DNA of 64,000 nucleotides, from NCBI GenBank assembly GCA_029881255.1, contig JAOUMY010000001.1, positions 186,001 to 250,000 of the forward strand, written 5' to 3'. The translations under genes were made by a program, and so were the position numbers. The DNA is from Gammaproteobacteria bacterium (GTDB lineage Bacteria > Pseudomonadota > Gammaproteobacteria > S012-40). Below are positions 41,157-63,485 of the stretch, piece after piece; position 1 is the stretch's first letter; each line of letters starts with the position of its first letter. The notes under the pieces were generated by a model that was not told the DNA's origin, did not search any database, and saw only the letters and a list, made by a program, of their open reading frames with translations.

Positions 41157-42275
41157 GTGTCTCAAACATGGTCCAATGATTTTCTCAATCGAATGAAAAA
41201 CACTGGTGACGATTTAGCAGAGAGTGTTATTGAGTCTCTGAATAGGAATAAACAACTCGAATTAGCGAACAAATATTTCGCACAACCGGAAACAAACACT
41301 CACGTCCTAAACGATTTACCCGCCGAACTACAACGCTATATTGGCAAAACATCACACCTACCGGAATGGGCGGACAGGCAAAAAATTCTTTTGGCACAAC
41401 ACTTTTTTTCTACCAGAGGCCCTGTCTTTGGCGCTGTTCTATTGTGTGGTTCTCTACCGGTCCTCTACGCCGGCGGCCTAGGTGGTGCGCAAGTGTTGGC
41501 CGCAACCGGGCAAATGAGCAAGCACTACGAACGCCGCGCAGGTGAAACCTTACGATTTATTTTAAGTGCTATGGAACCAGGCGGCCTTGATCCGCAAGCC
41601 CAAGGTATCCGAACCATTCAACGCGTGCGATTGATGCACGCAGCAATACGCCACTACGCTAAACATAGTCCAGACAAGTGGCCGGCCAAACCAGATTGGG
41701 GAGTGCCGATAAACCAAGAGGAATTGGTTGGTACTCTACTGGCATTTTCCAGCCAGGCATTAATCGGATTGAACAAAATGGGCGTAGTACCAACCGAGGA
41801 GGAAAAGCAAGCCTACTTCCATACATGGAAAGTGATCGGGCACTTGTTAGGCATCAGTCCAGAAATTATTCCAGAGACTCTCGAGAGCGCCGCAGAACTA
41901 TGGGCGGCAATTTCTAGACGTAACTTTATGCCTAGTGCGGCAGGTCGAGAGTTAGCGAAGGCGCACCTTCACTTTCTCGAAGGCCTGGTGCCAGGCCATA
42001 TATTCGATGGTGTTGTTGTCGCATTGATGCGCTATCTCATGGGAAGAAAAATTACCGAACATGATCTTGGGTTTCCCAAGCCGGGCTTCTTCAGTTGGTT
42101 GATTTGTGTTTTACGTGGTGTCTTCGGCTTTAAAGAGTCATTGATAGATTGCTCAAGGACGATCAAACAAATTGCGGAGCACGATAGCATACTTTTCATG
42201 GAAGGCCTGGCAAACCATTGGATGAGAAACGACAGCAAACCGTTTCAAATTCCTGCTTCATTGACGCAACGTTAA
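41157..42275 (+). CDS. DUF2236 / MpaB-rubber oxygenase-like protein
   Basis: This 372-residue protein starts at GTG (41157), with AAAAGGAG ending 6 bases upstream. It resembles the DUF2236 family, which includes latex-clearing protein (a b-type haem dioxygenase that cleaves polyisoprene) and fungal MpaB (oxygenase that cleaves a farnesyl side chain). The core motif QRVRLMHAAIRHY (155-167) contains the His (161) that ligates haem in characterised members, and a second block WKVIGHLLGI (224-233) follows. No signal peptide is seen. The next gene starts 9 bases later and encodes a terpene-cyclase-like membrane protein, so a role in isoprenoid or quinone side-chain chemistry is inferred. Confidence 0.78.
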   Translation: MSQTWSNDFLNRMKNTGDDLAESVIESLNRNKQLELANKYFAQPETNTHVLNDLPAELQRYIGKTSHLPEWADRQKILLAQHFFSTRGPVFGAVLLCGSLPVLYAGGLGGAQVLAATGQMSKHYERRAGETLRFILSAMEPGGLDPQAQGIRTIQRVRLMHAAIRHYAKHSPDKWPAKPDWGVPINQEELVGTLLAFSSQALIGLNKMGVVPTEEEKQAYFHTWKVIGHLLGISPEIIPETLESAAELWAAISRRNFMPSAAGRELAKAHLHFLEGLVPGHIFDGVVVALMRYLMGRKITEHDLGFPKPGFFSWLICVLRGVFGFKESLIDCSRTIKQIAEHDSILFMEGLANHWMRNDSKPFQIPASLTQR

Positions 42276-46312: not shown

Positions 46313-47263
46313 GTGAAAATTATTCGCGGCCTACATAATATTCGGGCCGAACACCAGCAGTGTGTAGCGACCATCGGCAATTTTGATGGCCTACACCTTG
46401 GGCACCAGGACATCATTGTGCGCCTCAAGCAGGTGGCCGCCGAGCGTGGTGTGCCTGCGACGCTCATCACCTTTGAGCCCTATCCCCAGGAGTTTCTGCG
46501 GCCCGATCCGGCGATTTCACGTTTGACGCGTTTTCGCGAGAAAATGACCCTATTGAAAGAATGGGGCGTAGACCAGGTTTTGTGCCTGCGTTTCAACCAG
46601 TGGCTGGCCTCATTAGAACCCGAGCAATTTATACAACTGGTATTGGCGGAAAAACTGGCCATTCGCCACCTTATCGTCGGTGATGACTTCCGTTTTGGGC
46701 GACAGCGGCGCGGTGATTTTGATATGCTTACCCGTTCGAGTGAGGAATATGGCTATAGCATCGAAAACACCGAAACTGTAGCGATAGACGATGAACGCGT
46801 CAGTAGTACCCGGGTGCGCAAAACCCTGGCAGATGGCGACATGCAGACGGTCAAACGACTATTGGGTCGCGACTATGCCATGCTTGGCCGTGTCGCGCAT
46901 GGTGATAAACGTGGGCGCACTATCGGCTTCCCGACGGCCAACATCCATTTGCACCGTAAATCAGTCCCAGTTAGCGGGGTTTATGCGGTAAATATGGAAG
47001 GGCTCGGGAATACCCCTGTAACAGGTGTCGCCAACGTCGGTAATCGCCCGACAGTCGATGGAACGCGTAGCCTGCTAGAGGTTCATTTGTTTGATTTCGA
47101 CCATGACATCTATGGTCGACACGTAAAAGTAAACTTCATCGACTTCATTCGACCAGAAATGCGCTTCGATGGGCTGGACGCCCTCAAGCAACAAATTGCC
47201 AGGGATAGTGAACAAGCTAGAAAAATACACCTAGACCGGTCGACCAATACGCCCACCCAGTAA
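46313..47263 (+). CDS. ribF: Bifunctional riboflavin kinase / FAD synthetase
   Basis: This is a 316-residue enzyme that makes FMN and then FAD. I start at the GTG at 46313 (KIIRGLHNIR), matching the E. coli RibF N-terminus and length (313). The longer frame upstream has no support. The FAD synthetase domain shows TIGNFDGLHLGHQ and GDDFRFGRQRRGDF. The flavokinase domain shows GRTIGFPTANI, KSVPVSGVYAV and GVANVGNRPTV. In many relatives murJ, ribF and ileS are adjacent; here both junctions are interrupted. Its 3' end overlaps the convergent regulator gene by 33 bases. I saw no FMN-riboswitch-like leader. Confidence 0.96.
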   Translation: MKIIRGLHNIRAEHQQCVATIGNFDGLHLGHQDIIVRLKQVAAERGVPATLITFEPYPQEFLRPDPAISRLTRFREKMTLLKEWGVDQVLCLRFNQWLASLEPEQFIQLVLAEKLAIRHLIVGDDFRFGRQRRGDFDMLTRSSEEYGYSIENTETVAIDDERVSSTRVRKTLADGDMQTVKRLLGRDYAMLGRVAHGDKRGRTIGFPTANIHLHRKSVPVSGVYAVNMEGLGNTPVTGVANVGNRPTVDGTRSLLEVHLFDFDHDIYGRHVKVNFIDFIRPEMRFDGLDALKQQIARDSEQARKIHLDRSTNTPTQ

Positions 47264-48145
47264 AGACTGAATGGCGATTGACGCAGCGGAGGTGCGATTA
47301 TCCGCACCGATTTTCGGATACATTTGCTCAAGATGTTTATTTACCGTTCTCGGGCTCATATCGAGGATTTCGGCTATTTCGCGGTTCGTTTTGCCGTGTG
47401 CCACCCACAACAACACTTCCGCTTCACGGTGGGTAATCCGCAACGCACTTTCCAAGACAGCAGGCTTGACCTCGGCGGTTGGTAATTGGACCTTTAGTAA
47501 AAACTCATCCTCACGCCCTTGTTTAAAGTATCGCACTGTCAGCAATTCCTGCTTATAGGGTAACGCAAGGTCGTGTCCACTCATTCCATTGGGCAGCCAG
47601 GAACGAAATTTTGTCGAAAGTGTATCGCCATTCTGCTCGGTACAAAACTCATCTAGCAGTTGCTGCGCCTCTGGCGTTGCCCACAAAACATGACCGCTAC
47701 CATCAATGCAGAACACATGTTGACTCGCTGTATCCAGGGCTTGTCGTGCTTCGATCAACATTTTTGCGGCATTACTATGCTGCCGAATACGCGCCAATAA
47801 TTCTTGAGGTTTAATAGGCTTCACAATATAGTCCGAACCGCCGCTTTCAAATGCCTTAACGATATCCTCTTCTTCGCTCAAACCTGTCATAAAAATTACC
47901 GGCACCAAAGGCAGGATCCGACGAATATTTCTCGCGGTTTCATACCCATCCATGACCGGCATCAAGGCATCCAGCAAAATTACGTCCGGGGTCACCTGGT
48001 CCAACACATTCAGAGCCTGTTGACCATTTAGCGCGACGAGCACGGCTATGCCGACATCGTCTAACGCCATATTAATCATGCTCAGCGAACCCGGGTCGTC
48101 ATCGACGACCAGAACGACGAATTTTCCTTTAAATTGTTGTATCAC
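47231..48145 (-). CDS. REC-LuxR response regulator next to urea genes
   Basis: This is an about 304-residue protein. The receiver domain (about 10-125) has VVDDD, phosphoacceptor Asp in LLDALMPVMDG and the Lys in VKPIKP. A PAS-like middle region (about 140-225) follows, then a LuxR/FixJ-type helix-turn-helix (ITHREAEVLLWVAHGKTNREIAEIL, MSPRTVNKHLEQMY). I prefer the GTG at 48145, which has GGGGGAG upstream; ATG at 48163 is possible. Either overlaps the 3' end of the permease-kinase gene, so the two are translationally coupled and probably a cognate pair. The likely targets are the divergent porin/urt/ure genes. Confidence 0.88.
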   Translation of the reverse strand: MIQQFKGKFVVLVVDDDPGSLSMINMALDDVGIAVLVALNGQQALNVLDQVTPDVILLDALMPVMDGYETARNIRRILPLVPVIFMTGLSEEEDIVKAFESGGSDYIVKPIKPQELLARIRQHSNAAKMLIEARQALDTASQHVFCIDGSGHVLWATPEAQQLLDEFCTEQNGDTLSTKFRSWLPNGMSGHDLALPYKQELLTVRYFKQGREDEFLLKVQLPTAEVKPAVLESALRITHREAEVLLWVAHGKTNREIAEILDMSPRTVNKHLEQMYPKIGADNRTSAASIAIQSLLGGRIGRPV

Positions 48146-51100
48146 CAAACTCCCCCAGCTCACTCACCGCTTGAACAATACCATCTAGGTCACACACCTC
48201 GACAAGCAACTTCAAGTGGGAAAACCAATTTGCATAATAATATCTTTCTTCCAACTGAGCGATACAGTCATTCAGTCCTTTGAGATAACCGATTCGCGCG
48301 TACTCGATCATTGCACCAAGATCGCGCATATCCTCAGTTCTGATCTCGATATCATGCGCATCGACTGACTCATCGTCGGAAAGCAGACTGATTTTTAGCG
48401 CCTTTTCCAACTGCTCTATCAATTTTTCAAACACCACGGGTTTATTGATATAGGCGTCAAATTTATCTCGCATTTGATTCACTGCGTCCGCTTCATAGGG
48501 ATCGGCTGACAACATGATTACTGGCTGCGTCACATGTTTATTGCGCAAACTTTGCAGTAGCGTCCAACCGCTCGCGTCGGGCAGATTAATATCGAGAAGA
48601 TACAGGTCTATGTGTTCTTGTTCTGCCTTTTTTAGCGCAGCTTCTGTGCAATCAGCTTCGACGATACGAAAACGCGCCGGCGCCAGCAGATCCTTGATCA
48701 CATTGCGATGAGCTTCTTCATCATCCACCAGCAACAGCGTTCGTTCCACATCCAGTTTTCGAATCTTGGTCACCTGGTTGTGCTTTCGATAAACCCCTGT
48801 CACACCGGGCAACATCAGCTGAATACTAAATTCACTACCCTTACCCTCCTCACTGCTAACAAGGATCTGACCGCCCATCAGTTCTGCCAATAGACGACTA
48901 ATCGTCAAGCCCAATCCTGTGCCGCTAACTTTACTGGTAGTTTTCGATTTGACCCGCTCAAATGGTTCAAAAATTCGCGTAAGATCCTCCCTGGGTATTC
49001 CCACGCCTGTATCCCTGACAAGGAATGTTGCGACCTGATTGCGATAACTCACAATCAGATCGACACTGCCATGCTCGGTATACTTCAATGCATTGGAAAG
49101 TAGATTTAACAAGATCTGACGCAGACGTTTCTCGTCTGCATTAACATAACTTGGTAGACATTCAATGTTATGTACTTTAAACGTTATTCCTTTTGCACGG
49201 GCCTGTTGCGAAAACATTTCATCGAGTTGTGAAATCAGCTTGGTTATCGCAACGCGCTCCCGGTGTATTTCTAAACGTCTCGCCTCTATCTTCGAAAAAT
49301 CGAGCAGGCTTTCGACGACGTCCGACAGGTGTTGTCCGCTGCGTCTAATTATCGTTGCCACGTTACGGGTTTTCGCGTCCAGGTCTTCATTGGTTTCCAT
49401 GAGTTGCGCATAGCCAAAGATGGTATTCAATGGCGTTCTTAACTCATGACTTACTCCGGAGAGGTAGCGACTTTTTGCCTGATTGGCAGTATCTGCGGCA
49501 TTCTTGGCATCAAGTAATTTGCGATTGGTTTCTTCATGCGCGTCTACCTCATCTTCGAGCAACTGCGCCTGCGATTCCAGTTCGGTTAGCGCCAGTCGTG
49601 CACTGCGTTGCGCAAGCACATACAGCCACACCAACACGCCAGCAACGACCAACAAGAGAAAAAATACACGCCACAGCGTTGACTCGATGAGCAAGAGATC
49701 ACGCAGGGACGCATCGGCCTGCGCATAATAAACCAGACTCAACAAGGCGGCGATCACCACACCCGTAACACTGAAAATCACAAAGAACTGACTCGTAGTC
49801 GAATGCAGTTTCTGATTCAGATGCGGTGGTAGAATTCGCCCGAGAAAACTTGATGTCTGTGCTGCAAAATGTGCCTGCGGACGACAACGATCACCGCAGC
49901 GCGCGTCCAGTGAACAGCACAAGGAACAGATCGCGCCGTTATAACTGGGACAGGCGCTCATATCTTCCACATCAAAGGCGTTTTCACACACAACACAGGA
50001 CACCAGGTTTTCCGCACTACATTCGAGATCAGATACGTTGTTCAGATAAAATCGACTTTGCGTCAACCAGGCAATTAGAGGCACGGTGATAAACGGCAAG
50101 CCCAACGCGATGAACGGTGCCATCACCTTAAACGTATCTCCAAGTAGACCAAGACTCGCGCCAAAGCCCGTGGCCGACGCGATGATCATGGAGCCAACGC
50201 CGACGGGATTAATGTCATACAGATGACTACGCCTGAACTCAATATGGCGAGGGCTCAATCCCAGCGGTTTGTTAACCACGAGATCCGCCACCACACAGCC
50301 TATCCAGGCGACCACTAATATCGAATACGTCACCAGGATTTCTTCAAAGGCCTGATATAAACCCAGCTCCATCAGCAGCAAGGCAATCGCGACATTGAAA
50401 AACAGCCACACGACCCGGCCTGGATGATGATGAGTCAATCGGGAAAAAAAATTACCCCAGGCAATCGAACCGGCATAGGCATTAGTCACATTGATCTTTA
50501 ATTGCGAGATGACCACAAACACCGCCGCTACGTATATCGCTGTTTGCGGATTTTGCGTCAGATACTCAAACACCACCGCATACATATGCGCGGGGTCAGC
50601 AGCTTCAGAAAGACTCAGGCCATAGTTCAAGGCAAGTACAGCGAGGAAGGAACCGAGTAGTAATTTTGCAACGCCGACGATCACCCAACCTGGCCCTGCA
50701 CTAATGACCGCCATCCACCAGCTTAAACGCCTTTCTTTGTTTACCGGCAGAAAACGCAGAAAATCCGCCTGTTCGCCATTTTGCGCAATCAGCGGAAAAA
50801 TAACTGCGGCACATGCACCAAACAAATACAAACTGAGACCCTCGTTCGCCGCCTGTTTAACCCCTTCAAAATTCATCCATTGCTGAAAAACACCTGATTG
50901 ATTACTCGCAACGTAAAACAAGGGTAATAATTGCAGCAGTATCCACAACGGTTGCGTCCATGCCTGAAAGGTACTGATACGACTAATGCCGTGTGTCACC
51001 AGTGGAATCACAACCAAGGCGCTGATCACATAGGCAATCGACAGCGGAATATCTGTCGCCATGTGTATCGCCATCGACATAATCGCCGCTTCGATGGCAA

Positions 51101-51488
51101 AGAAGATAAACGTGAATGATGCATAGATCAGTGACGAAATTGTCGAGCCGATGTAGCCGAAGCCGGTGCCACGTGTGAGCAGGTCAATGTCCACGCCATA
51201 TTTGGCGGCATAATACGAAATCGGTAGTCCGCACAAGAAGATAATCAGCCCGACCACCATGATTGCCCAGAACGCGTTGATAAAGCCATAGTTCAAGGTG
51301 ATGGTACCGCCGATCGCCTCCAAAGCCAGAAATGACACGATTCCCAGGGCTGTATTCGCTACACGGGCGTTACTCCAGCGGCGAGCTCGCTTGGCGGTAT
51401 AGCGTAGCGAATAGTCCTCCAGTGTTTGATTAGCAATCCACTGGCTGTATTCTCGCCGGAAATTGGGAGTACGAGGTTTTGGAGACAT
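48129..51488 (-). CDS. NCS1-type permease fused to hybrid histidine kinase
   Basis: This is a 1119-residue fusion. Residues 1 to about 480 form a 12-helix nucleobase/cation symporter-like permease (YGVDIDLLTRGTGFGYIGS, NVTNAYAGSIAWGN). Residues 490-535 hold a cluster of about nine cysteines (CVVC, CSLCC, CGDRC) likely to bind zinc. Two more helices (565-590, 603-625) and a coiled coil lead to HisKA (His 681 in GVSHELRTPLN), an ATPase domain (NLLSNALKY, DTGVG, GTGLGLTIS) and a receiver (Asp 966 in LLDINLPD), then a helical tail. It probably senses a purine, pyrimidine or urea-related solute. It lies upstream of, and divergent from, the urea genes. Confidence 0.9.
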   Translation of the reverse strand: MSPKPRTPNFRREYSQWIANQTLEDYSLRYTAKRARRWSNARVANTALGIVSFLALEAIGGTITLNYGFINAFWAIMVVGLIIFLCGLPISYYAAKYGVDIDLLTRGTGFGYIGSTISSLIYASFTFIFFAIEAAIMSMAIHMATDIPLSIAYVISALVVIPLVTHGISRISTFQAWTQPLWILLQLLPLFYVASNQSGVFQQWMNFEGVKQAANEGLSLYLFGACAAVIFPLIAQNGEQADFLRFLPVNKERRLSWWMAVISAGPGWVIVGVAKLLLGSFLAVLALNYGLSLSEAADPAHMYAVVFEYLTQNPQTAIYVAAVFVVISQLKINVTNAYAGSIAWGNFFSRLTHHHPGRVVWLFFNVAIALLLMELGLYQAFEEILVTYSILVVAWIGCVVADLVVNKPLGLSPRHIEFRRSHLYDINPVGVGSMIIASATGFGASLGLLGDTFKVMAPFIALGLPFITVPLIAWLTQSRFYLNNVSDLECSAENLVSCVVCENAFDVEDMSACPSYNGAICSLCCSLDARCGDRCRPQAHFAAQTSSFLGRILPPHLNQKLHSTTSQFFVIFSVTGVVIAALLSLVYYAQADASLRDLLLIESTLWRVFFLLLVVAGVLVWLYVLAQRSARLALTELESQAQLLEDEVDAHEETNRKLLDAKNAADTANQAKSRYLSGVSHELRTPLNTIFGYAQLMETNEDLDAKTRNVATIIRRSGQHLSDVVESLLDFSKIEARRLEIHRERVAITKLISQLDEMFSQQARAKGITFKVHNIECLPSYVNADEKRLRQILLNLLSNALKYTEHGSVDLIVSYRNQVATFLVRDTGVGIPREDLTRIFEPFERVKSKTTSKVSGTGLGLTISRLLAELMGGQILVSSEEGKGSEFSIQLMLPGVTGVYRKHNQVTKIRKLDVERTLLLVDDEEAHRNVIKDLLAPARFRIVEADCTEAALKKAEQEHIDLYLLDINLPDASGWTLLQSLRNKHVTQPVIMLSADPYEADAVNQMRDKFDAYINKPVVFEKLIEQLEKALKISLLSDDESVDAHDIEIRTEDMRDLGAMIEYARIGYLKGLNDCIAQLEERYYYANWFSHLKLLVEVCDLDGIVQAVSELGEFGDTTI

Positions 51489-51684
51489 AACTTCAGAAAC
51501 TGGTTTAACTACGGCACCACCAGCTATACCGCAGATTGTTCAATAAGGATATGCGTAATTTGACGTATGCCTACTGGGTATTGTTCGCATTCTCCACGAT
51601 TTCCCTTCATCGGATACTGAGTACCAACAGAAACATGTCGCTTCTGCTGAGTCCTCTCAATGTTTGACAGAAAAGGAAGATCGA

Positions 51685-52827
51685 ATGATAGCAAGCAAAA
51701 AAACCATCACCAAAAAGCTTCTGCTGGCTAGTGCGCTCGCGTCGCTAAGCGGTACGACACTGGCTGGCGCCAAGATTAGCGTCGATGAAGACACCTGGAT
51801 CTCGCTGGGCGCAGGGTTGCGTTTTGGCGTGTCCAGTACGCTGGACGGTTCACCGAATGGCAACAGCCCCAGTACTGGAATCGATATGCAAAGCACGCGT
51901 TTGTATATTTCCGGTCAGGCCAACAAGTCGCTGAAATTCTCCTTCGGCACAGAAAAGATGTGGGGCGAATACGGCGTTCTGGACGCGGTTATCCAATATG
52001 AACCAAGCAAGGCATTCAATGTCTGGGCGGGACGCATGCTGACGCCAGCCGACCGTATCGAAATGAACGGCCCGTTTTACGCCTTGAGTTGGAACCAATA
52101 TACCGTCCCCTTGTTTCCTTCAGACAATGACATCGCCAACGGCAGCAATGGTGTCGCCGGCACCTATGGCCGCGATGATGGGGTCACCGTGTGGGGAACA
52201 CTGGCGAAATTTCAATACGCCATCGGCGTCTTCGATGGTCTGAGTGGCCCGACCAATGGTAAAGACATGCCGCTGATCGCAACACGTCTTGCTTACAACT
52301 TCCTCGATATGGAGGGCAATCCTGCCTATTACACCAGCAGCACCTATTTCGGTAAGGGCAGCGACATTCTCACACTGGGGTTTTCTGCGCAATACCAGGC
52401 TGATGGCTATGGCGACGCTACCAACGACGGCTCATTTACGGGGGTCGCCGTAGATGCTTTGCTCGAAAAAACACTGTCTGGTGGTTCGGCGCTAACGTTT
52501 GAAGGTGAATACAAGAAATTCATGGTTGATACCACCGCAGCCACACCAACGTTTGGCATGTTTGACGGTGATTCCTATTTTGCAACTGTCGGGTTTCTAC
52601 TCGGTGGAAAAATGGGTCCGGGTCAGATCCAACCCTATCTGCGCTACACAGGCAACTCACCCAGTACTGGAGCCGCCAGCTCTCTGGCTGAGCTCGGTAT
52701 GAACTATGTGATTTCCGGGCAGAACATGAAACTCAACCTCAATTTCACTAGTGGCGACGCGAACGCGAGCGGTGCTGCTGGAACCGACAGCAAGACCATG
52801 TCATTCGGCATGCAAATGCAACTCTAA
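51685..52827 (+). CDS. Outer-membrane porin
   Basis: This 380-residue protein starts at the ATG at 51685, with AAGGAAG upstream; the longer TTG frame lacks support. A signal peptide (cleavage near LAG-AK, about residue 28) precedes a sequence rich in alternating hydrophobic strands, Gly and aromatic residues, typical of a 16-strand trimeric porin. The gene sits 25 bases before urtA, so it may admit urea or related solutes across the outer membrane. The exact porin subfamily is not recognised. Confidence 0.82.
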   Translation: MIASKKTITKKLLLASALASLSGTTLAGAKISVDEDTWISLGAGLRFGVSSTLDGSPNGNSPSTGIDMQSTRLYISGQANKSLKFSFGTEKMWGEYGVLDAVIQYEPSKAFNVWAGRMLTPADRIEMNGPFYALSWNQYTVPLFPSDNDIANGSNGVAGTYGRDDGVTVWGTLAKFQYAIGVFDGLSGPTNGKDMPLIATRLAYNFLDMEGNPAYYTSSTYFGKGSDILTLGFSAQYQADGYGDATNDGSFTGVAVDALLEKTLSGGSALTFEGEYKKFMVDTTAATPTFGMFDGDSYFATVGFLLGGKMGPGQIQPYLRYTGNSPSTGAASSLAELGMNYVISGQNMKLNLNFTSGDANASGAAGTDSKTMSFGMQMQL

Positions 52828-52852: not shown

Positions 52853-54148
52853 ATGATGAAAAAATTTAGCTACAAGAAACTCATGCTCACCGCAGCTGTC
52901 GCCGCAACTATTGCCAGCAACAGCGTCGCCTGGGCAAAAGACACTATCAAGGTTGGTGTACTGCATTCCTTGTCAGGCACCATGGCTATTTCCGAAACCA
53001 CATTGAAAGACACCATGTTAATGCTCATCGATGAGCAGAACAAAAAAGGTGGTCTACTCGGCAAGAAACTCGAGGCCGTAGTCGTCGACCCCGCATCGAA
53101 CTGGCCACTATTTGCGGAAAAGGCTCGCGAACTGATCAGCAAGAAAAAAACCGATGTTGTATTTGGTTGCTGGACTTCCGTATCTCGCAAGTCGGTTTTA
53201 CCGGTATTCGAAGAGTTGAATAGTTTGCTGTTCTATCCGGTTCAATATGAGGGCGAAGAGTCTTCAGAAAATATTTTCTATACCGGCGCATCACCTAACC
53301 AACAGGCAATTCCTGCAGTTGATTATTTAATGAATGATTTGAAAGTCAAACGCTGGGTACTGGCGGGTACTGACTATGTCTATCCGCGCACTACCAACAA
53401 AATTTTAGAGGCCTACTTGATTTCTAAAGGCGTGGACAAAAAAGACATCATGATCAACTATACGCCGTTCGGTCATTCTGACTGGCAGTCTATCGTTTCC
53501 GATATCAAGAAGTTTGGTAGCGCGGGCAAAAAAACAGCGGTGGTTTCAACTATCAACGGTGATGCCAACGTACCTTTCTACAAAGAGTTAGGCAATCAGG
53601 GTGTATCTGCCGAAGACATTCCAGTCGTCGCCTTCTCTGTCGGTGAAGAGGAACTCTCCGGCCTCGACACCAAGCCACTGGTGGGTCACCTGGCTGCATG
53701 GAATTACTTCATGAGTGTCGAATCTGACGTCAACGAAGAGTTTATTGGCAGCTGGCACAAATACATCAAGAACAAGAAGCGCGTTACCAACGATCCCATG
53801 GAAGCGCACTATATCGGCTTCAATATGTGGGTAAAGGCAGTCGAAAAGGCGGGCACAACCGATCCAAAAGCCGTTAAGGATGCGATCATCGGTATTACCG
53901 TTCCCAATCTGACTGGTGGTTACTCAGCTATGATGCCGAATCATCACATCACCAAGCCAGTACTCATCGGTGAAATTCAAAAGAATGGTCAGTTCGAAAC
54001 GGTCTGGAAAACTTCAGGTTTAGTAGCCGGAGACGCCTGGTCAGATTTTCTTCCTGGCTCTAAAGACATCATCGCTGATTGGCGTGCACCTCTGTCCTGC
54101 GGAAACTACAACGTAAAAACCAATAAGTGTAGTGGTCAAAATTTCTAA
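52853..54148 (+). CDS. urtA: Urea ABC transporter substrate-binding protein UrtA
   Basis: This 431-residue periplasmic binding protein starts at the ATG at 52853 (or 52856), with AGGAG upstream. The signal peptide ends near AWA-KD. The mature N-terminus (IKVGVLHSLSGTMAISE) and motifs GCWTSVSRKSVLPVFEE, LLFYPVQYEG and TNDPMEAHYIGF are characteristic of UrtA among the amide-urea binding proteins. It is followed by a hairpin and then urtB. Confidence 0.96.
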   Translation: MMKKFSYKKLMLTAAVAATIASNSVAWAKDTIKVGVLHSLSGTMAISETTLKDTMLMLIDEQNKKGGLLGKKLEAVVVDPASNWPLFAEKARELISKKKTDVVFGCWTSVSRKSVLPVFEELNSLLFYPVQYEGEESSENIFYTGASPNQQAIPAVDYLMNDLKVKRWVLAGTDYVYPRTTNKILEAYLISKGVDKKDIMINYTPFGHSDWQSIVSDIKKFGSAGKKTAVVSTINGDANVPFYKELGNQGVSAEDIPVVAFSVGEEELSGLDTKPLVGHLAAWNYFMSVESDVNEEFIGSWHKYIKNKKRVTNDPMEAHYIGFNMWVKAVEKAGTTDPKAVKDAIIGITVPNLTGGYSAMMPNHHITKPVLIGEIQKNGQFETVWKTSGLVAGDAWSDFLPGSKDIIADWRAPLSCGNYNVKTNKCSGQNF

Positions 54149-54259: not shown

Positions 54260-55891
54260 ATGGTAATGCTTCGGATACTCCGTCAACGAATACCAGGAAT
54301 ACTCAATGCGAGTTCATTGTTTGCCATTCTGCTCAGCTGCTTTCTCGTTAACGCACATGCGCAAGAATTGACGCTGCAGCAAGCCTGGGAAATGCTTACC
54401 GAAGACAGTTATTCGGATAAGGCCGATGCAATAGATGCGATTGTCACGCACAATCCACCCCAGGCCGCTATGGTTATGCGAACAATGCTGCAAGGCGAAC
54501 TGTATTTCTCAAAGGAAACCCTGAAGCTCTATCGCATCAAGGAACTAGAAGACGGATATCAGTTTTCCGCATTGCTCGACGAAGAAGTCATCACTCAGGA
54601 ACGCAAACGCGGATTTAAAAAAGCGAAAATCAACAACACCCTTCGAGGCATTTTAAAACAGGCTTTAGCTGGACTGGAGCTCAACCACGCTGATGCTGGC
54701 GTAAGACTCAACGCCGTAACTGAATTATTGAAAGAGCCCGAGACAGAGAGCGCGGACATCTTGCGCCCCCGTGTCGACAAAGAGCAGAACGAAGAGATAC
54801 GCACCGCAATGCAAACCTTGATTGCCATTGTTGACTTGCAAAACGAGGATTCAACACAACACCTAAACGCGATCGAGACCTTGGGCGAAAGTCTCAATCC
54901 TGCCGCACTAAACGCATTAAAAATCTATACCTCGCCAGACAAACAACTGCAAAATGCAGCAAAGCGCGCCGCGCAATCTATTCGGGATCGCAAGGAAATC
55001 TATGGCATTTTTGAAACCATATTCTTCGGCCTCAGTTTAGGCTCGGTGTTGGCGCTCGCCGCGATCGGACTGGCTATTACCTTTGGTGTCATGGGCGTTA
55101 TCAATATGGCCCACGGCGAATTAATTATGATCGGTGCCTATACCACTTTTGTGGTGCAACAACTCATGCCGAATAATATTGGGCTATCAATCGTTGTGGC
55201 TATCCCTGCGGCGTTTATTGTATCCGGCCTGGTTGGCATTGCCATTGAGCGTGGCATCATACGCCATCTATATGGACGACCGTTGGAAACGTTATTAGCA
55301 ACGTTCGGGATAAGTCTTGTTCTGCAACAAGCGGTGCGCAGTATTTTTTCACCACTAAATCGCACCGTAGAAACACCGCAGTGGATGTCCGGTGCGTGGC
55401 AGATTAACGAAGTGCTCGCACTCACCTGGAATCGCTTTTACATCATCTTGTTCTGCCTCGCCGTCTTTATGGCCTTGATCGCCATCATGAAGAAAACGCC
55501 ATTGGGACTACAGGTCAGAGCAGTTTCACAAAATCGTACCATGGCGCGCGCGATGGGTGTTCGTTCAGACTGGGTCGATGCGCTCACCTTTGGTTTAGGT
55601 GCAGGCATAGCAGGCATTGCTGGCGTTGGCCTAAGTCTGCTAACCAATGTCGGACCAAATCTTGGGCAGGCATACATCATCGACTCGTTTATGGTCGTGG
55701 TATTTGGCGGCGTCGGCAATCTCTGGGGAACACTGGTAGCAGGTCTGAGTCTCGGCGTTGCCAACAAGATTATGGAACCCTGGGCCGGCGCCGTGTTGGC
55801 CAAAATCCTTGTTCTGGTCTTCATCATTCTATTCATTCAGAAGCGTCCCAAAGGACTGTTTCCCCAACGTGGTCGTGCGGCGGAGGATTGA
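54260..55891 (+). CDS. urtB: Urea ABC transporter permease UrtB
   Basis: This 543-residue protein is longer than plain LivH permeases because it has an N-terminal signal (cleavage near AHA-QE, about residue 35) and an about 200-residue helical periplasmic region with HEAT-like repeats. The permease domain (about 245-540) shows LSLGSVLALAAIGLAITFGVMGVINMAHGE and GVGNLWGTLVAG motifs and about eight membrane helices. The extension is typical of UrtB. urtC follows after 3 bases. Confidence 0.95.
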   Translation: MVMLRILRQRIPGILNASSLFAILLSCFLVNAHAQELTLQQAWEMLTEDSYSDKADAIDAIVTHNPPQAAMVMRTMLQGELYFSKETLKLYRIKELEDGYQFSALLDEEVITQERKRGFKKAKINNTLRGILKQALAGLELNHADAGVRLNAVTELLKEPETESADILRPRVDKEQNEEIRTAMQTLIAIVDLQNEDSTQHLNAIETLGESLNPAALNALKIYTSPDKQLQNAAKRAAQSIRDRKEIYGIFETIFFGLSLGSVLALAAIGLAITFGVMGVINMAHGELIMIGAYTTFVVQQLMPNNIGLSIVVAIPAAFIVSGLVGIAIERGIIRHLYGRPLETLLATFGISLVLQQAVRSIFSPLNRTVETPQWMSGAWQINEVLALTWNRFYIILFCLAVFMALIAIMKKTPLGLQVRAVSQNRTMARAMGVRSDWVDALTFGLGAGIAGIAGVGLSLLTNVGPNLGQAYIIDSFMVVVFGGVGNLWGTLVAGLSLGVANKIMEPWAGAVLAKILVLVFIILFIQKRPKGLFPQRGRAAED

Positions 55892-55894
55892 TCC

Positions 55895-56983
55895 ATGTTT
55901 ACAGCACGCTTTATTCAAGACGACAAAGCTGGTCAATGGTTTCTCGGACTGTTGTTGCTGGTGTGTGTTCTGGTACCGATATTCAATTTATTGGTACCAC
56001 AAGACAGTATTTTTCATTTTTCGACCTATAGTGTGACGCTATTAGGCAAGTATTTAACTTACGCCTTGCTCGCTGTCGCTGCCGACCTGGTGTGGGGATA
56101 TCTTGGCATACTCAGTCTTGGCCATGCAGCCTTCTTCGCACTCGGTGGCTATGTCATGGGCATGTATTTGATGCGCCAGATCGGTGATCGCGGCGTCTAC
56201 GGCAATCCGGTATTACCCGACTTTATGGTGTTTCTGAACTGGCAAGAGCTACCCTGGTTCTGGCATGGCTTCGATATGTTCTGGTTTGCTGCATTGATGA
56301 TTATCGTCGTACCCGGTGTGTTGGCCTTTGTATTCGGTTACCTCGCTTTTCGATCACGCGTTTCCGGTGTGTATCTATCGATCATTACCCAGGCACTGAC
56401 TTACGCACTCATGCTCGCCTTTTTCCGCAATGAGATGGGTTTTGGCGGCAATAACGGACTTACCGATTTTAAAGACATACTCGGTTTTGATTTACGCTCA
56501 GATGGCACACGCGTCTTTCTGTTTATTGCTTCGGCATTCGCACTGGCTGGCGGTTATGTCGCCTCGCGCTATATCGTCAATTCGCGACTCGGACTTGCCT
56601 GTGTCGCAATCAGAGACGCTGAGAGCCGTACGCGATTCATCGGTTATCGGGTCGAAAACATCAAGCTTTGGATTTTCACTTTTTCTGCTGTACTCGCAGG
56701 CATCGCCGGCGCACTTTATGTTCCACAGGTGGGCATTATTAACCCAAGCGAATTCTCTCCGCTCAATTCCATTGAGCTTATTATTTGGGTCGCAATCGGT
56801 GGTCGGGCAACACTGTTTGGCGCGGTCATAGGGGCATTGTTGGTCAATTACTCCAAAACCTATTTCACCGCCGCATTACCCGAAGTCTGGCTATTTGCAC
56901 TCGGCGCCTTATTCGTACTTGTCACTATGTATCTGCCTAAGGGCATGGCGGGATTGCGATGGAATCGGAGGGTTGGCGCATGA
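55895..56983 (+). CDS. urtC: Urea ABC transporter permease UrtC
   Basis: This 362-residue LivM-type permease pairs with UrtB. About nine to ten membrane helices are visible, with DLVWGYLGILSLGHAAFFALGGYVMGMYL near the N-terminus and NELGFGGNNGLTDFKDILGF-like and GRATLFGAVIGALLV motifs. The stop overlaps the urtD ATG, so translation is coupled. Confidence 0.95.
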   Translation: MFTARFIQDDKAGQWFLGLLLLVCVLVPIFNLLVPQDSIFHFSTYSVTLLGKYLTYALLAVAADLVWGYLGILSLGHAAFFALGGYVMGMYLMRQIGDRGVYGNPVLPDFMVFLNWQELPWFWHGFDMFWFAALMIIVVPGVLAFVFGYLAFRSRVSGVYLSIITQALTYALMLAFFRNEMGFGGNNGLTDFKDILGFDLRSDGTRVFLFIASAFALAGGYVASRYIVNSRLGLACVAIRDAESRTRFIGYRVENIKLWIFTFSAVLAGIAGALYVPQVGIINPSEFSPLNSIELIIWVAIGGRATLFGAVIGALLVNYSKTYFTAALPEVWLFALGALFVLVTMYLPKGMAGLRWNRRVGA

Positions 56984-57813
56984 GTTTCACTGACACCATC
57001 AAGGAAGTTCGAAATCGCGACAAGGTCTTTAGTTTTCTGGTCCCACCAGAGCCACCGAAGCTAGATCTTTCACATAACATCGCACTATATATCGAAGGCG
57101 TGAACAAGAGCTTCGATGGATTCAAAGCGATCAATGATTTGAATCTTTACATCGACGCAGGCGAATTGCGCTGTATTATCGGTCCGAATGGCGCCGGCAA
57201 ATCGACAATGATGGATATTATTACGGGGCGTACCAAACCAGACAGCGGACAAGTATGGTTTGGCCAACGCCTCAATCTACTCGAACTGGATGAACCGCGT
57301 ATCGCCGAAGCCGGTATCGGTAGAAAATTTCAGAAACCAACTGTGTTCGAGTCACTAACGGTGTGTCAGAATCTGGAACTCGCGATGGCGCAGAACAAAC
57401 GTGTCATCCCTTTGCTGTTCGCCAGACTAAGTGGCGAACAACGGGATCACATCGACGAAGTGTTACACACGATTAATCTCGTCGACATGCAAAAAGAACT
57501 GGCGGCGAAACTATCACACGGACAGAAGCAGTGGTTGGAGATCGGCATGCTACTCATGCAGAGACCCGCTTTGTTGCTGGTTGATGAACCTGTTGCCGGT
57601 ATGACCCATCAGGAAATGGAACGTACGGCAGCACTGCTAACCTCGCTCGCCGGTGAGCGCTCCGTGATAGTGGTTGAACACGACATGGAATTTGTACGCT
57701 CGATCGCACGCAAGGTAACGGTTCTGCATCAGGGAAGCGTTTTATCCGAGGGCACCATGGATCAGGTGCAAAACGATCCACGCGTGAAAGAAGTTTATCT
57801 GGGGGAAGACTGA
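56980..57813 (+). CDS. urtD: Urea ABC transporter ATP-binding protein UrtD
   Basis: This 277-residue LivG-type ATPase starts at the ATG at 56980, which overlaps the urtC stop (ATGA) and has GGAGG upstream. Walker A GPNGAGKST, the signature LSHGQKQWLEIG and Walker B LLLVDEPVAGM are present. The insertion GIGRKFQKPTVFESLTV is typical of UrtD. The stop overlaps the urtE ATG by one base. Confidence 0.95.
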   Translation: MSFTDTIKEVRNRDKVFSFLVPPEPPKLDLSHNIALYIEGVNKSFDGFKAINDLNLYIDAGELRCIIGPNGAGKSTMMDIITGRTKPDSGQVWFGQRLNLLELDEPRIAEAGIGRKFQKPTVFESLTVCQNLELAMAQNKRVIPLLFARLSGEQRDHIDEVLHTINLVDMQKELAAKLSHGQKQWLEIGMLLMQRPALLLVDEPVAGMTHQEMERTAALLTSLAGERSVIVVEHDMEFVRSIARKVTVLHQGSVLSEGTMDQVQNDPRVKEVYLGED

Positions 57814-58508
57814 TGCTGACACTTTCTGGGGTGAACCAGTTCTACGGCCAGAGCCATACACTCTGGGATATCGAAATGGAAATAACACCGGGACAATGCA
57901 CCTGTCTGATGGGACGCAATGGCGTTGGTAAAACCACGCTGCTGAATTGCATTATGGGGGCATTGTCACTGGAAAGCGGTGAAATCGTCTACCAGGATAA
58001 GCCGCTACACAGCATGAGCATGGAGCAACGCGCACGCAATGGCATTGGCTACGTTCCGCAGGGTCGTCAGATTTTTCCGTTACTCACGGTCGAAGAAAAT
58101 CTCAGAATTGGTCTGTCATCGCGTCGCGACAATATCCGAAAAATCCCTGAATTCATTTTCGACCTGTTTCCAGTTTTAAAGGAAATGCTGCAACGCCGTG
58201 GCGGTGACCTCTCCGGCGGCCAACAACAGCAATTAGCGATAGGTCGTGCGCTGGTACTCGATCCAAAACTACTGATACTGGATGAGCCAACTGAAGGAAT
58301 ACAACCGAATGTAGTAGCAGAAATTGGCGACGTTATTCGCAAACTCAACAAAGAGATCGGGCTTACGGTTTTACTTGTTGAACAGAAGCTACCTTTTGTG
58401 CGCAAGGTAGCGGACCGATATTACATTCTTGATCGTGGCAGACGTGTCGCCAATGGCAATATCGACGAATTGAGCGAGTCTCTGGTAAAGGAATATCTCA
58501 CAGTATGA
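57813..58508 (+). CDS. urtE: Urea ABC transporter ATP-binding protein UrtE
   Basis: This 231-residue LivF-type ATPase is the second nucleotide-binding subunit. Walker A GRNGVGKTT, signature LSGGQQQQLAIGRAL and Walker B LLILDEPTEGIQPNVV are present. It overlaps urtD by one base and ureD by four (ATGA), so transporter and urease genes are translationally linked. Confidence 0.95.
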   Translation: MLTLSGVNQFYGQSHTLWDIEMEITPGQCTCLMGRNGVGKTTLLNCIMGALSLESGEIVYQDKPLHSMSMEQRARNGIGYVPQGRQIFPLLTVEENLRIGLSSRRDNIRKIPEFIFDLFPVLKEMLQRRGGDLSGGQQQQLAIGRALVLDPKLLILDEPTEGIQPNVVAEIGDVIRKLNKEIGLTVLLVEQKLPFVRKVADRYYILDRGRRVANGNIDELSESLVKEYLTV

Positions 58509-59347
58509 GTGTGGCGGTATTAGACAAAACTGCGACAGGCTGGAAGGCGGAACTGGAACTCACTCTGTCGCTTCGGCGGGGGACCACCGTCATGAGGCGC
58601 AATCGCAGCCTCGGTCCCTTGCGCGTGCAACGCCCGTTTTATCCCGAAGCGAATCTACCGCACATTTATTTATTACACCCGCCTGGAGGCGTCGTCGCCA
58701 GCGATCAACTGAACATCGACGTTGTACTCGAAGCAGGCGCCCAAACATTGATCACAACTCCCGGCTCGACGAAGTTCTATCGCAGTGCTGGTCACACCGC
58801 AAAAGTCAGACAGCATTTTTTTGTCGACAAAGACGCGTGCCTGGAGTGGTTTCCCCAGGAAAATATTTTTTTCCCCGGCGCTTGTGCGGATTGCCGCACT
58901 CGTGTCGACCTCGAACACGGCGCGAAATTTGTCGGTTGGGAAATCAATTGCCTTGGGCGACCAAGCAACCGTGAACTATTCGATACCGGCGTACTTTCCG
59001 CTCGATTCGAAATTTTCCGCCAACAGCGTCCATTGTTGCGTGACAACTTACGCGTGGTGAACGCGTTTGACTTGAACTCACCCACTGGTTTACGCGGCTT
59101 CCCGATGATGGGAAGTTTTTTCGCCAGTGGCTGCAATCAACAACTAAAAGAATCCGTACAACAACAATTGCATCAACAGTTCGACGAATTGTGTTGTGGC
59201 GTCACACTACTCGATGACTTACTCATCGTTCGCATACTTGGACATCAGACCGAGAAGATCCAGCAAATAATGATACCCATCTGGCAAATGCTCAGACCCG
59301 AATTACTACAACGTCCAGCAGTACTTCCACGTATCTGGGCGACATGA
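58505..59347 (+). CDS. ureD: Urease accessory protein UreD
   Basis: This 280-residue protein helps UreF and UreG deliver nickel to apo-urease. The family blocks LRVQRPFYPE, TTPGSTKFYRSAG and WFPQENIFFPGA are present. It overlaps urtE by four bases and precedes ureA by 14 bases. Confidence 0.95.
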   Translation: MSVAVLDKTATGWKAELELTLSLRRGTTVMRRNRSLGPLRVQRPFYPEANLPHIYLLHPPGGVVASDQLNIDVVLEAGAQTLITTPGSTKFYRSAGHTAKVRQHFFVDKDACLEWFPQENIFFPGACADCRTRVDLEHGAKFVGWEINCLGRPSNRELFDTGVLSARFEIFRQQRPLLRDNLRVVNAFDLNSPTGLRGFPMMGSFFASGCNQQLKESVQQQLHQQFDELCCGVTLLDDLLIVRILGHQTEKIQQIMIPIWQMLRPELLQRPAVLPRIWAT

Positions 59348-59361
59348 GATGAGGAAAACCT

Positions 59362-59664
59362 ATGGAATTGACTCCACGCGAAAAAGATAAATTGCTGATC
59401 TTCACCGCTGCGCTACTCGCAGAAAGAAGACTGGCGCGCGGACTTAAACTCAACTATCCCGAAGCCGTCGCGATGATTACCGCGGCAATCATGGAAGGCG
59501 CTCGCGACGGAAAGACCGTTGCTGACTTGATGAACGAAGGTCGTGAAGTATTAAACGCCGATCAGGTGATGGTTGGGGTGGCTGATATGGTACACGAGGT
59601 TCAAGTGGAAGCTACTTTTCCCGACGGCACCAAACTGGTCACGGTTCACAATCCCATCGTCTAG
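59362..59664 (+). CDS. ureA: Urease gamma subunit
   Basis: This is the 100-residue small structural subunit of urease, which hydrolyses urea to ammonia and carbamate. The N-terminus [23 protein letters not shown] is typical and the length matches. GAGGAAAA lies before the ATG. Confidence 0.97.
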
Positions 59665-59684
59665 GAAAGAGGCAGGAGAATTTT

Positions 59685-59996
59685 ATGAAACCCGGAGAAA
59701 TCATTACTGCCGATGGCGATATCGACATCAATGTCGGCCTGACAACGGTGCAGATCGATGTCGCCAATACCGGCGACCGTCCCGTACAGGTCGGTTCGCA
59801 TTACCACTTTTACGAAACCAATCCAGCACTGCAGTTCGATCGTGAGGCCACCCGCGGATGTCGTCTGAATATCGCCGCCGGTACGGCGGTGCGTTTCGAA
59901 CCCGGCCAGCGTCGACGCGTGGAACTGGTGAGTTATAGCGGCAGGCGACAGGTCTACGGTTTTCGTGGCGACATCATGGGACAACTGGAGGATTAA
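59685..59996 (+). CDS. ureB: Urease beta subunit
   Basis: This 103-residue structural subunit begins [16 protein letters not shown]. It contains [22 protein letters not shown] and [12 protein letters not shown]. It is separate from UreA, as in most bacteria. ureC follows after 2 bases. Confidence 0.97.
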
Positions 59997-59998
59997 TC

Positions 59999-61702
59999 AT
60001 GGCGAAAATGTCCAGACGCGCCTATGCGGAAATGTTTGGCCCGACCACCGGCGACAAGATGCGTCTCGCCGATACTGAACTGTGGATTGAAGTTGAAAAA
60101 GATTTCACGACCTATGGCGACGAAGTCAAATTTGGCGGTGGCAAAGTCATCCGCGATGGCATGGGACAGTCGCAGGCCTGCGCCAGTGAAGTCGTTGATC
60201 TGGTCATCACCAACGCGCTGATCATCGATCACTGGGGCATCATCAAGGCCGATGTCGGCATCAAGAACGGGCGCATCGCGGCGATAGGCAAGGCGGGCAA
60301 CCCGGACATACAGAACAATGTCGACATCGTCATCGGTCCGGGCACCGATGTGGTCGCCGGTGAGGGCAAGATACTCACCGCCGGTGGCATCGATTCGCAC
60401 ATCCATTTTATCTGTCCGCAGCAAATCGAAGAGGCACTCGCGTCCGGCGTGACCACCATGCTCGGTGGCGGCACCGGTCCGTCGACAGGAACCAATGCCA
60501 CCACCTGCACGCCGGGTCCGTGGAATATTCACCGCATGCTGCAAGCAGCCGATGCCTTCCCCATGAATCTGGGTTTTCTTGGCAAGGGTAACGCCAGCGT
60601 CGCCGCACCACTGGAAGAACAAATCGAGGCCGGTGCAATGGGACTCAAACTGCACGAAGACTGGGGCACCACACCGGCCGCGATTGATACCTGTTTAAGC
60701 GTTGCCGATCGCTTCGATGTGCAAGTCGCGATACATACCGACACACTCAACGAATCGGGATTTGTGCAGGACACGATTGCCGCGTTCAAGGATCGCACCA
60801 TACATACTTATCACACCGAGGGAGCCGGTGGCGGACATGCGCCGGACATCATTACCGTGTGTGGCCTGCCCAACGTCCTGCCCTCGTCGACCAATCCGAC
60901 GCGTCCTTACACGATTAACACCGTCGACGAACACCTCGACATGTTGATGGTGTGTCACCATCTCGATCCGTCGATTGCCGAAGACGTCGCCTTTGCCGAA
61001 TCGCGCATTCGTCGTGAGACGATTGCCGCCGAAGATATCTTTCACGACCTCGGCGCCTTCTCCATGATCTCTTCCGATTCACAGGCCATGGGTCGTGTTG
61101 GCGAAGTCATCATGCGTACCTGGCAGACCGCGCACAAGATGAAAATACAGCGTGGCGCGCTCAGCGGCGACACAGCATTCAATGACAATCATCGCGTCAA
61201 ACGCTATGTCGCCAAGTACACCATCAACCCGGCAATCGCCCACGGCATTGCACACGAAGTCGGTTCGGTGGAGAAGGGCAAGCTGGCCGATCTGGTGTTG
61301 TGGAATCCCGCGTTTTTCGGCGTAAAGCCATCACTCATCATCAAGGGCGGCATGATTGCCTATGCCGCAATGGGTGATCCCAATGCCTCGATACCCACAC
61401 CGCAACCGGTGCACTATCGCTCCATGTTCGGCAGTTATGGCAAGGCGCGCAACGCCACCAGCATGACGTTTATTTCCGAGGCTGCAAGCAAGGCTGGCAT
61501 TGCGCAACAACTGGGTTTACAGAATCTGATCGGCGTTACTCGCGGCAATCGCAAGGTGAAAAAGGCCGACATGATACACAACGACTACCAACCCCATGTG
61601 GAAGTCGATTCGCAAACCTATGAGGTGCGCGCCGACGGCCAGCTGCTGAGCTGCGATCCGGTCGACGAGTTGCCCATGGCCCAACGTTACTTTTTATTCT
61701 GA
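59999..61702 (+). CDS. ureC: Urease alpha subunit (catalytic)
   Basis: This 567-residue catalytic subunit carries the dinuclear nickel centre. Ligands are visible in HIHF, the carbamylated Lys in GLKLHEDWG, His in AIHTDTLNE, and [15 protein letters not shown]. The mobile flap MVCHHLD with its Cys and catalytic His, and the Asp in the C-terminal barrel region, are all present, so the enzyme should be active. It lies in the high-GC part of the window. Confidence 0.98.
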
Positions 61703-61704
61703 CA

Positions 61705-62175
61705 ATGATAGAACTGACACAAATACTCACCGACAAAGACAGTGACTACGAAACTACGCTGAGTCTGCCCATCGACCAACGGGGCAAGAGTCGGCTCAAG
61801 GTAAAACTGGACGACGGACGTGACGCAGGACTATTTCTCGAGCGCGGCAATTTACTGCGCGACGGTGATCGCCTGAGCAATGAACAGGGTGTGGTAGTAA
61901 AAGTTGTCGCCGCCGCAGAATGTGTGTCCACCGTGCACAGCGATGATTTAACGCTGCTCGCGCGTGCCACCTATCATCTAGGTAATCGCCACGTTCCGGT
62001 ACAGATTGAAAGCGGCTGGATACGCTATCTGCACGATCATGTTCTCGATGCCATGCTCGAGCAAATGGGATTGTGTGTAGAAGTCTCGCATGCCGCCTTT
62101 GAGCCAGAGGCCGGTGCCTATCAGCAAATGACGGGCGGCGCACATCATCACGGACATGGTCATGCGCAACACTAG
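61705..62175 (+). CDS. ureE: Urease accessory nickel chaperone UreE
   Basis: This 156-residue nickel metallochaperone has a peptide-binding N-terminal domain (about 1-75), a metal-binding domain with the conserved GNRHVPVQIE, and a histidine-rich C-terminus ([10 protein letters not shown]) for nickel storage. ureF starts inside its 3' end. Confidence 0.95.
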   Translation: MIELTQILTDKDSDYETTLSLPIDQRGKSRLKVKLDDGRDAGLFLERGNLLRDGDRLSNEQGVVVKVVAAAECVSTVHSDDLTLLARATYHLGNRHVPVQIESGWIRYLHDHVLDAMLEQMGLCVEVSHAAFEPEAGAYQQMTGGAHHHGHGHAQH

Positions 62176-62857
62176 TCCCCAACTGTCGCAGCTGCGCCTG
62201 TTTCAGATGATCAGCCCGTCGCTGCCGATTGGCGCTTTCACCTACTCGCAAGGGCTGGAGTGGGCAGTCGAAAACGGCTGGGTGCGCAATGAAAAGGATA
62301 CGCAGGCATGGTTACTATCGACGCTGGACAACAGTCTGGCGCGACTCGAATTGCCAGTGATGCAACGAATGCATCAGGCGCTGCAAGAAAATTCGACACA
62401 GGACTTCTTCTACTGGAGCGAGTTCGTGTGGAGTTATCGGGAAACCAGTGAACTGCGGGCCGAGGAAACCCAGCGCGCCTTAGCCTTTTTCGAAATACTG
62501 AGAAAACTACCGCGCTGGACCGGTGAGCAGGCGTTGCAAACACATCGCGACGCATTACTGCTGACGCAAATCGCCGACTATACTCTCGCCGGATATCACT
62601 GGCAGATCGATGTAAAAGAACTGATGGCGGGATTGGCGTGGAGCTGGCTGGAAAACGCGGTCAATAGTGCAATCAAACTGGTGCCACTGGGACAAAGCGC
62701 CGGACAGTCCTTGCTGTTTGAACTGTCGGAACAGATTCCGGCATTGATCGATTCTGCTTGTGCATTAAATAACGAACAACTAGGCCCTAGTACGCCGGCG
62801 CTGGCGATCGCCAGCAGCCGACATGAAACGCAATATTGCCGACTATTTAGATCCTGA
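62162..62857 (+). CDS. ureF: Urease accessory protein UreF
   Basis: This about 231-residue protein acts with UreD and UreG in nickel insertion. The motifs [20 protein letters not shown] and [20 protein letters not shown] are typical. I prefer the ATG at 62162; one at 62156 is possible. Both overlap the ureE end. Confidence 0.94.
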
Positions 62858-62867
62858 TGGAGTGAAC

Positions 62868-63485
62868 ATGAATAATAAATCCCCTTTACGTGTTGGTGTG
62901 GGTGGACCGGTAGGTTCGGGTAAAACAGCCTTGCTAGAGCAACTGTGCAAGACCATGCGCGATGACTACAACATCGCTGTTGTAACCAACGATATCTATA
63001 CCCGTGAAGACCAGCGTATTTTAACCGAGGCCCAGGCCTTAGCCCCGGAACGCATTGTCGGCGTGGAAACAGGTGGCTGTCCACACACGGCCATCCGCGA
63101 AGATGCCTCGATGAATCTTGCGGCGGTCGCCGAATTGTCAGCGCGTTTCGAAGACCTGGACGTCATTTTTATCGAAAGCGGCGGTGACAACCTCAGCGCC
63201 ACCTTCAGTCCGGAACTGGCAGATCTGACGATATATGTCATCGATGTGGCGTCCGGTGAAAAGATCCCGCGCAAAGGCGGCCCCGGCATCACCCGCTCTG
63301 ATTTACTCGTCATCAATAAGATCGACCTGGCTGAACTCGTGGGTGCATCACTTACCGTGATGAATAGTGACACCCAACGGATGCGCGGCGAAAAACCCTA
63401 TGTCTTTACCAATCTCAAGACCCGTGAAGGTCTCACTGACATCATCGGTTTTCTGAAAGACAAGGGGATGTTGGCCAGGGCATAG
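62868..63485 (+). CDS. ureG: Urease accessory GTPase UreG
   Basis: This 205-residue SIMIBI-class GTPase powers nickel delivery. I start at the ATG at 62868 with GGAG 6 bases upstream; the longer frame overlaps ureF. P-loop GGPVGSGKT, the CPH nickel-binding motif in [24 protein letters not shown] and the NKID specificity motif are present. It ends the urea operon. Confidence 0.97.

Follow-up and report, generated by a model that had tools for sequence, protein, structure and literature searches.

A single uninterrupted reading frame of 1,119 residues, located in a 64,000-nucleotide stretch of DNA from a Gammaproteobacteria bacterium (GCA_029881255.1, contig JAOUMY010000001.1, positions 186,001 to 250,000; hereafter the window), joins a permease, a cysteine-rich domain, two further transmembrane helices and a hybrid histidine kinase, and lies divergently from an operon for the import and hydrolysis of urea. 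We consider it probable that this protein is a nitrogen-source transceptor, in which an NCS1-superfamily permease for urea or short-chain amides, together with a Cys (probably zinc) domain, feeds a hybrid kinase that switches on the divergent import and breakdown operon. With somewhat less assurance, we favor the broader proposal that permeases with an NCS1 fold and a zinc-finger-like tail form an undescribed family for urea and short-chain amides, and that kinase capture within this clade made widespread transceptors controlling ABC importers, urease, amidases or a paralog through one shared palindrome. If this is true, the operons with which many proteobacteria take up and hydrolyze urea, formamide and acetamide would gain a regulator, a new family of urea/amide permeases would be predicted, and the transporter families known in transceptor kinases, SLC5 and Amt, would be joined by an unrelated third.

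Architecture of the Sensor

A preliminary description of this DNA had recognized one gene encoding a complete 12-helix NCS1-like permease, two more helices, HisKA, ATPase and receiver domains, and this layout is confirmed by the frame, by Pfam and by an AlphaFold2 model. HisKA, HATPase and the receiver domain (REC) are all clear Pfam matches, the hallmarks of a hybrid histidine kinase are all present (the HisKA histidine, the N and G boxes and the REC aspartate), and His681 is kept in nearly all relatives in the alignment. The possibility, raised in the same description, that a sequencing or frame error joined two genes is ruled out by the same join in more than 100 relatives, the fusion recurring across Pseudomonadota. 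The coupled REC-LuxR response regulator and the porin-urt-ure genes opposite were also read correctly: the regulator overlaps the stop codon of the kinase gene, starting at GTG 48163 or at GTG 48145, which has the better ribosome site, and the operon is divergent. About 115 residues between REC and the LuxR helix-turn-helix of this regulator (window 47231-48163) read PAS-like (ALDTASQHVFCIDGSGHVLWATPEA), with no Pfam model matching them.

The N-terminal 642 residues of the sensor gave no Pfam match even at E 10, SSF included, and a PDB sequence search with the N-terminus returned nothing, so the NCS1 label was tested through structure and profile routes. The model of the first 665 residues, for which 47 homologs were used (predicted local distance difference test, pLDDT, 83.7; predicted template modeling score 0.82), has CodB as its closest fold (Foldseek E 5.9e-10; VIA Z 34.1, 397 aligned, 3.4 A), followed by Mhp1 (VIA Z 26-29), whereas the best chain outside NCS1 reached Z 24.9 and SLC5 proteins ranked well below (Z 22-24 vs. 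34). The family profile aligned to a CodB/Mhp1/NCS1 profile with an hhalign probability of 99.9% over 431 columns, and a kinase-free relative (L109) passes PF02133 (E 1.1e-7, 31.5 bits against a cut-off of 23.5); the window protein itself has no PF02133 match above the curated cut-off, and identity to known NCS1 proteins is 13-20%. On the strength of the structure match, the profile alignment and the L109 match, the assignment of the N-terminus to the NCS1 fold and superfamily stands.

The Cys domain follows transmembrane helix (TM) 12 and is therefore probably cytosolic; the two further helices are predicted at residues 564-589 and 595-625. The nine-cysteine cluster reported earlier is real, but eight of its cysteines are conserved (Cys498, 501, 513, 521, 524, 525, 531 and 535, each kept in 46 or more of the 47 divergent relatives) and the ninth, Cys490, is not. 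Nor is the cluster an extra insert at the junction of permease and kinase, as had been supposed: kinase-free permeases also carry it, making it part of the permease module and ruling out a kinase-specific linker. Modeled alone, the domain adopts small strands and one helix (pLDDT 72.5), and its Foldseek matches are mostly zinc folds (RING, PHD, FYVE, LIM), all with E > 0.3 and none significant; the model suggests that it is probably a zinc treble-clef or finger-like fold, in which zinc would be the bound metal. Eight nearly invariant cysteines could also be taken to mean that the cluster is the main sensor, of redox state or of the nickel that urease requires, and that the permease is a membrane anchor, the more so as NicT follows kinase-free permeases in urease operons. 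However, conservation of the cluster is just as strong where the targets are formamidase and amidase, which have no evident nickel need, and in kinase-free permeases; its pattern resembles structural zinc folds, if the non-significant matches are followed, and positions in the permease equal the cysteines in conservation, so that we regard a cysteine-based sensor as highly improbable.

Kinase-Free Relatives and the Substrate Class

The fusion is widespread, at least 557 stretches having been confirmed in contigs of GTDB species. In genome samples, the N-terminal profile matched 21 of 369 genomes from the class and 70 of 398 from the phylum, and most of the strong matches have open frames above 1,000 residues. 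NtrB-like kinases without REC are found on the same permease and Cys module (L180 8501-11182, L181 8665-11361 and, in G044, L012 1423-4443), with formamidase near L180 and L181.

Most informative of all are two settings of kinase-free relatives, which bear on the substrate. In G289, G826, G830, G832 and G834, ureG is followed, in a ureDABC..FG operon, by the gene for a permease-Cys protein of 558-582 residues and then by that for a NicT-type nickel transporter, and G833 is alike up to the ureG-permease pair, without a NicT match. A second subtype heads a permease-fmdA-amiE operon, back-to-back with regulator and sensor (G273, G838, G833, G826, G836), in the place that urt-like ABC genes take in other genomes. 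By context, these permeases import urea or small amides, and they probably represent an undescribed urea/amide permease family (L147 11592-13442; L151 9091-10776; L235-L244). Sensor input domains share about 40-57% identity with them, and because these relatives occupy urease and formamidase/amidase operons, the input domain is, judged from sequence, closely related to what appears to be a permease for urea or amides and not to a purine permease. Fungal UreA, of another LeuT-fold family, carries urea and is inhibited by acetamide (excerpt of PMC9783183). In a tree rooted on other NCS1 proteins, two kinase-free rows branch outside the fusions (support 97/66 and 87/60, on long branches), suggesting permease first and kinase capture later as the likely, if not proven, order. 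Since the sensor stands back-to-back with a kinase-free paralog in some genomes, these pairs provide matched domains with which to ask whether it is through occupancy or flux that a fold built for transport comes to serve as the input of a signal.

The cavity was compared with CodB and Mhp1 by alignment, residue roles being taken from PMC9379551. The aromatic pair that sandwiches the nucleobase in NCS1 proteins is not retained in the sensor family: base-stacking Trp108 of CodB is replaced by Phe129 (46 of 49) and the second aromatic, Phe204, by an aliphatic residue. Gln121 of Mhp1 corresponds to an invariant Glu133 and Asn318 to an invariant Asn336, and in place of the Na2-site Thr278/Thr279 of CodB (TM8) the family has invariant Lys331/Ile332, without the Thr/Ser of that site. 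These residues would speak against nucleobases and against sodium coupling, in an alignment at 14% identity where single positions carry some risk. The preliminary description had also envisaged purine-derived nitrogen, that is, purine, nucleobase or allantoin sensing that feeds into urea use. Such sensing would suit the NCS1 fold, known NCS1 proteins mostly carrying nucleobases, hydantoins or allantoin, but it is unsupported here and very unlikely, given that the sandwich aromatics are lost, that kinase-free relatives are located in urease and amidase operons, and that most relatives control formamidase or amidase, enzymes not required for the breakdown of purines. The loci examined yielded no purine or allantoin genes.

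Genomic Setting and the Operator-Like Palindrome

A LuxR response regulator adjoins the sensor in 90 of 99 fusion loci, and urt, ure (urease), fmdA (formamidase) or amiE (amidase) genes lie within 10 kb in 87, several of the exceptions being cut by contig ends. The loci of a first class resemble the window, with true UrtABCDE and urease (L018, L023, L024, L027, L028, L031, L150). In a second class, found in Marinobacter, Bradyrhizobium, Alcanivorax, Skermanella and others, UrtABCDE-like ABC genes (35-45% identity) are followed by genes that NCBIfam identifies as formamidase FmdA (NF045496, 777 bits), an FmdB-type protein and an aliphatic amidase; the Bradyrhizobium cluster blr0968-0973 had earlier been noted as a likely transporter of amide, not urea (excerpt of PMC3098086). 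The sensor is divergent from ureABC in L154, L182, L183 and L186. One genome (G148) holds two divergent family members (L152, L153), whose input may differ.

Between sensor and target operon lies a palindrome with the consensus TACGTCAwwTGACGyA. After deduplication of the upstream regions, at least 13 of its 16 positions match in 48 of 86, compared with 0.35% of dinucleotide shuffles, and at least 14 in 44 of 86, compared with none of 3,440 shuffles. These figures are descriptive, since the palindrome was first spotted by eye in the same sequences. Where intervening genes displace the sensor, the site remains with porin/urtA (L025, L029, L030, G503), and in Marinobacter, Pseudomonas and others a second copy is located at separate promoters of fmdA. 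Of the 398 phylum genomes, 8 contain exact sites, and 7 of these 8 have the fusion (about 52 of the 398 have it; Fisher p ~4e-6). The window site has one mismatch and the joint best score in its own genome, which rules out a general genomic repeat; there is only one other one-mismatch site (C2:176011), which suggests that control is local and not that of a regulon, and because two-mismatch sites number about 1.8 times the reversed control (27 vs. 15), no wider regulon is claimed. A sigma-70 promoter scan of the window intergenic region found none. In G447, two exact palindromes stand on one contig (L199 5039 and 13454) without a fusion, near restriction-modification-like genes; no urea/amide genes were recognized there, and these sites are taken as chance.

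Conserved synteny, kinase-free paralogs and the palindrome together lend strong support to two earlier suggestions, namely that the permease fold serves as the input of the kinase and that the system controls the use of urea nitrogen.

Proposed Mechanism

We propose that urea in the window, or small amides in most relatives, would bind in the permease cavity, and that the resulting conformational change would reach the kinase by way of the Cys domain, in the cytosol, and TM13-14, altering kinase activity. The LuxR-type regulator, translationally coupled to the sensor, would receive phosphate from His681, bind the palindrome and activate the divergent operon, porin-urtABCDE-ureDABCEFG in the window, and urt-like ABC genes or a stand-alone permease with formamidase/amidase in relatives. 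The signal is likely to be urea for the window and formamide, acetamide or urea for most relatives.

Several points weigh against this proposal. Synteny cannot separate the inducer from a co-regulated signal, and the locus counts, which 80 closest-relative loci enter, are no random sample. Family members in G148 and G044 have no urea/amide genes nearby; the palindrome has a variant core (TACGCAAGATYGCGTA) in Bradyrhizobium and some others, and not every sensor has it upstream, exceptions being found also among those divergent from ureABC. Furthermore, the SLC5 domain of CbrA transports histidine while its kinase activities are unresponsive to histidine (PMC7096432), a precedent by which permease kinship need not mean permease sensing. 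The same precedent, together with the repression of fmd genes by ammonia as well (excerpt of PMC10781810), would agree with a permease domain that only modulates or senses import and a kinase that answers an intracellular nitrogen signal, with the same operon control and urea or amide not the decisive ligand. We judge this unlikely: the segment that links permease to HisKA gave no sign of a cytosolic sensory domain, PAS included, and Glu133 and Asn336 are invariant, with Phe129 nearly so, in fusions as in kinase-free relatives, which argues that ligand binding is retained.

Features of the Window

The coordinates of the system are collected in Table 1. The sole model match of the window porin (51685-52827) is to the selenite/tellurite porin ExtI, below cut-off. 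The characterized porin closest to ExtI is FmdC, for amides and urea (PMC5877670), so that an ExtI label may be misleading for this gene. Farther away, a 704-residue protein with several PKD domains is encoded at 43107-45221 (minus strand), near an MpaB/Lcp-type oxygenase gene (41157-42275).

Table 1. Features of the sensor locus and the divergent operon, in window positions.
Feature	Positions	Strand	Basis or remark
REC-LuxR response regulator	47231..48163	minus	overlaps kinase stop codon
NCS1-permease / Cys-domain / hybrid histidine kinase	48129..51488	minus	single uninterrupted frame, 1,119 residues
Receiver domain (REC), residues 919-1027, conserved Asp966	48408..48734	minus	Pfam match
HATPase_c, residues 785-893	48810..49136	minus	Pfam match
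HisKA, residues 671-736, phospho-acceptor His681	49281..49478	minus	Pfam match, conservation
Two further transmembrane helices, residues 564-625, into kinase linker	49614..49799	minus	AlphaFold2 model
8-Cys domain, residues 498-535, C-x2-C-x11-C-x7-C-x2-CC-x5-C-x3-C	49884..49997	minus	conservation, model
NCS1-fold permease domain, residues 26-480, 12 TM helices	50049..51413	minus	AlphaFold2, fold search, profile alignment to CodB/Mhp1
Operator-like palindrome TACGTCAAATTACGCA (minus-strand reading)	51552..51567		between kinase and porin genes
Porin with weak match to ExtI; probable FmdC-like channel for urea/amides in the outer membrane (PMC5877670)	51685..52827	plus	
urtA	52853..54148	plus	TIGR03407
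urtB	54260..55891	plus	TIGR03409
urtC	55895..56983	plus	TIGR03408
urtD	56959..57813	plus	position, sequence, matching genes at same place in relatives
urtE	57813..58508	plus	position, sequence, matching genes at same place in relatives
ureD, ureA, ureB, ureC	58505..61702	plus	sequence, matching gene blocks in relatives
ureE, ureF, ureG	61705..63482	plus	sequence; ureG also matches relative named UreG

Comparison with Known Systems

Searches of the open-license literature turned up no account of NCS1-kinase fusions. What comes closest is a 2026 genome paper on Ectopseudomonas guguanensis G3, in which a hybrid histidine kinase and a LuxR response regulator stand beside urtABCDE operon III, with fmdA nearby; the excerpt of that paper gives the locus annotation only, with no permease domain, operator or function (PMC13296017). 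The target operon type, with porin, formamidase and amide/urea ABC transporter, is that of Methylophilus fmdCABDEF and Bradyrhizobium blr0968-0973, and the excerpts of these reports make no mention of a transceptor as regulator (PMC10781810, PMC3098086).

The NCS1 permeases CodB and Mhp1 share fold and overall topology with the sensor, at 14-18% identity, in which, unlike in them, the sandwich aromatics and Na2 threonines are replaced and a Cys domain and kinase appended. A close parallel is with the SLC5/STAC kinases CrbS/R (acetate), RpuS/R (pyruvate) and CbrA/B (histidine), in which a LeuT-fold transporter is likewise fused to a (hybrid) kinase that controls uptake and use genes of the respective compound (PMC9100948, PMC5715377, PMC7096432, PMC13022988). 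As in the NCS1-kinase loci, a LuxR regulator is adjacent in CrbS/R and RpuS/R, and CrbR requires an imperfect palindrome for activation (the ACTU motif), comparable with the palindrome described here (PMC5715377, PMC9100948). The differences lie in the NCS1-type input, in the 8-Cys domain and two helices in the position of STAC, which is absent from the Pfam matches of the sensor, in a different palindrome and in a different substrate class. The ammonium sensor kinase Ks-Amt5 is a further nitrogen-compound transporter turned kinase input (PMC5764959), but it has an Amt and not a LeuT fold, lacks REC and comes from an anammox planctomycete; CbrA transports (PMC7096432), whereas Ks-Amt5 only binds (PMC5764959). 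The sensor would work like the SLC5/STAC kinases and Ks-Amt5 but belongs to neither, because its input, from an unrelated family, has the NCS1 fold and the place of STAC is taken by a Cys domain.

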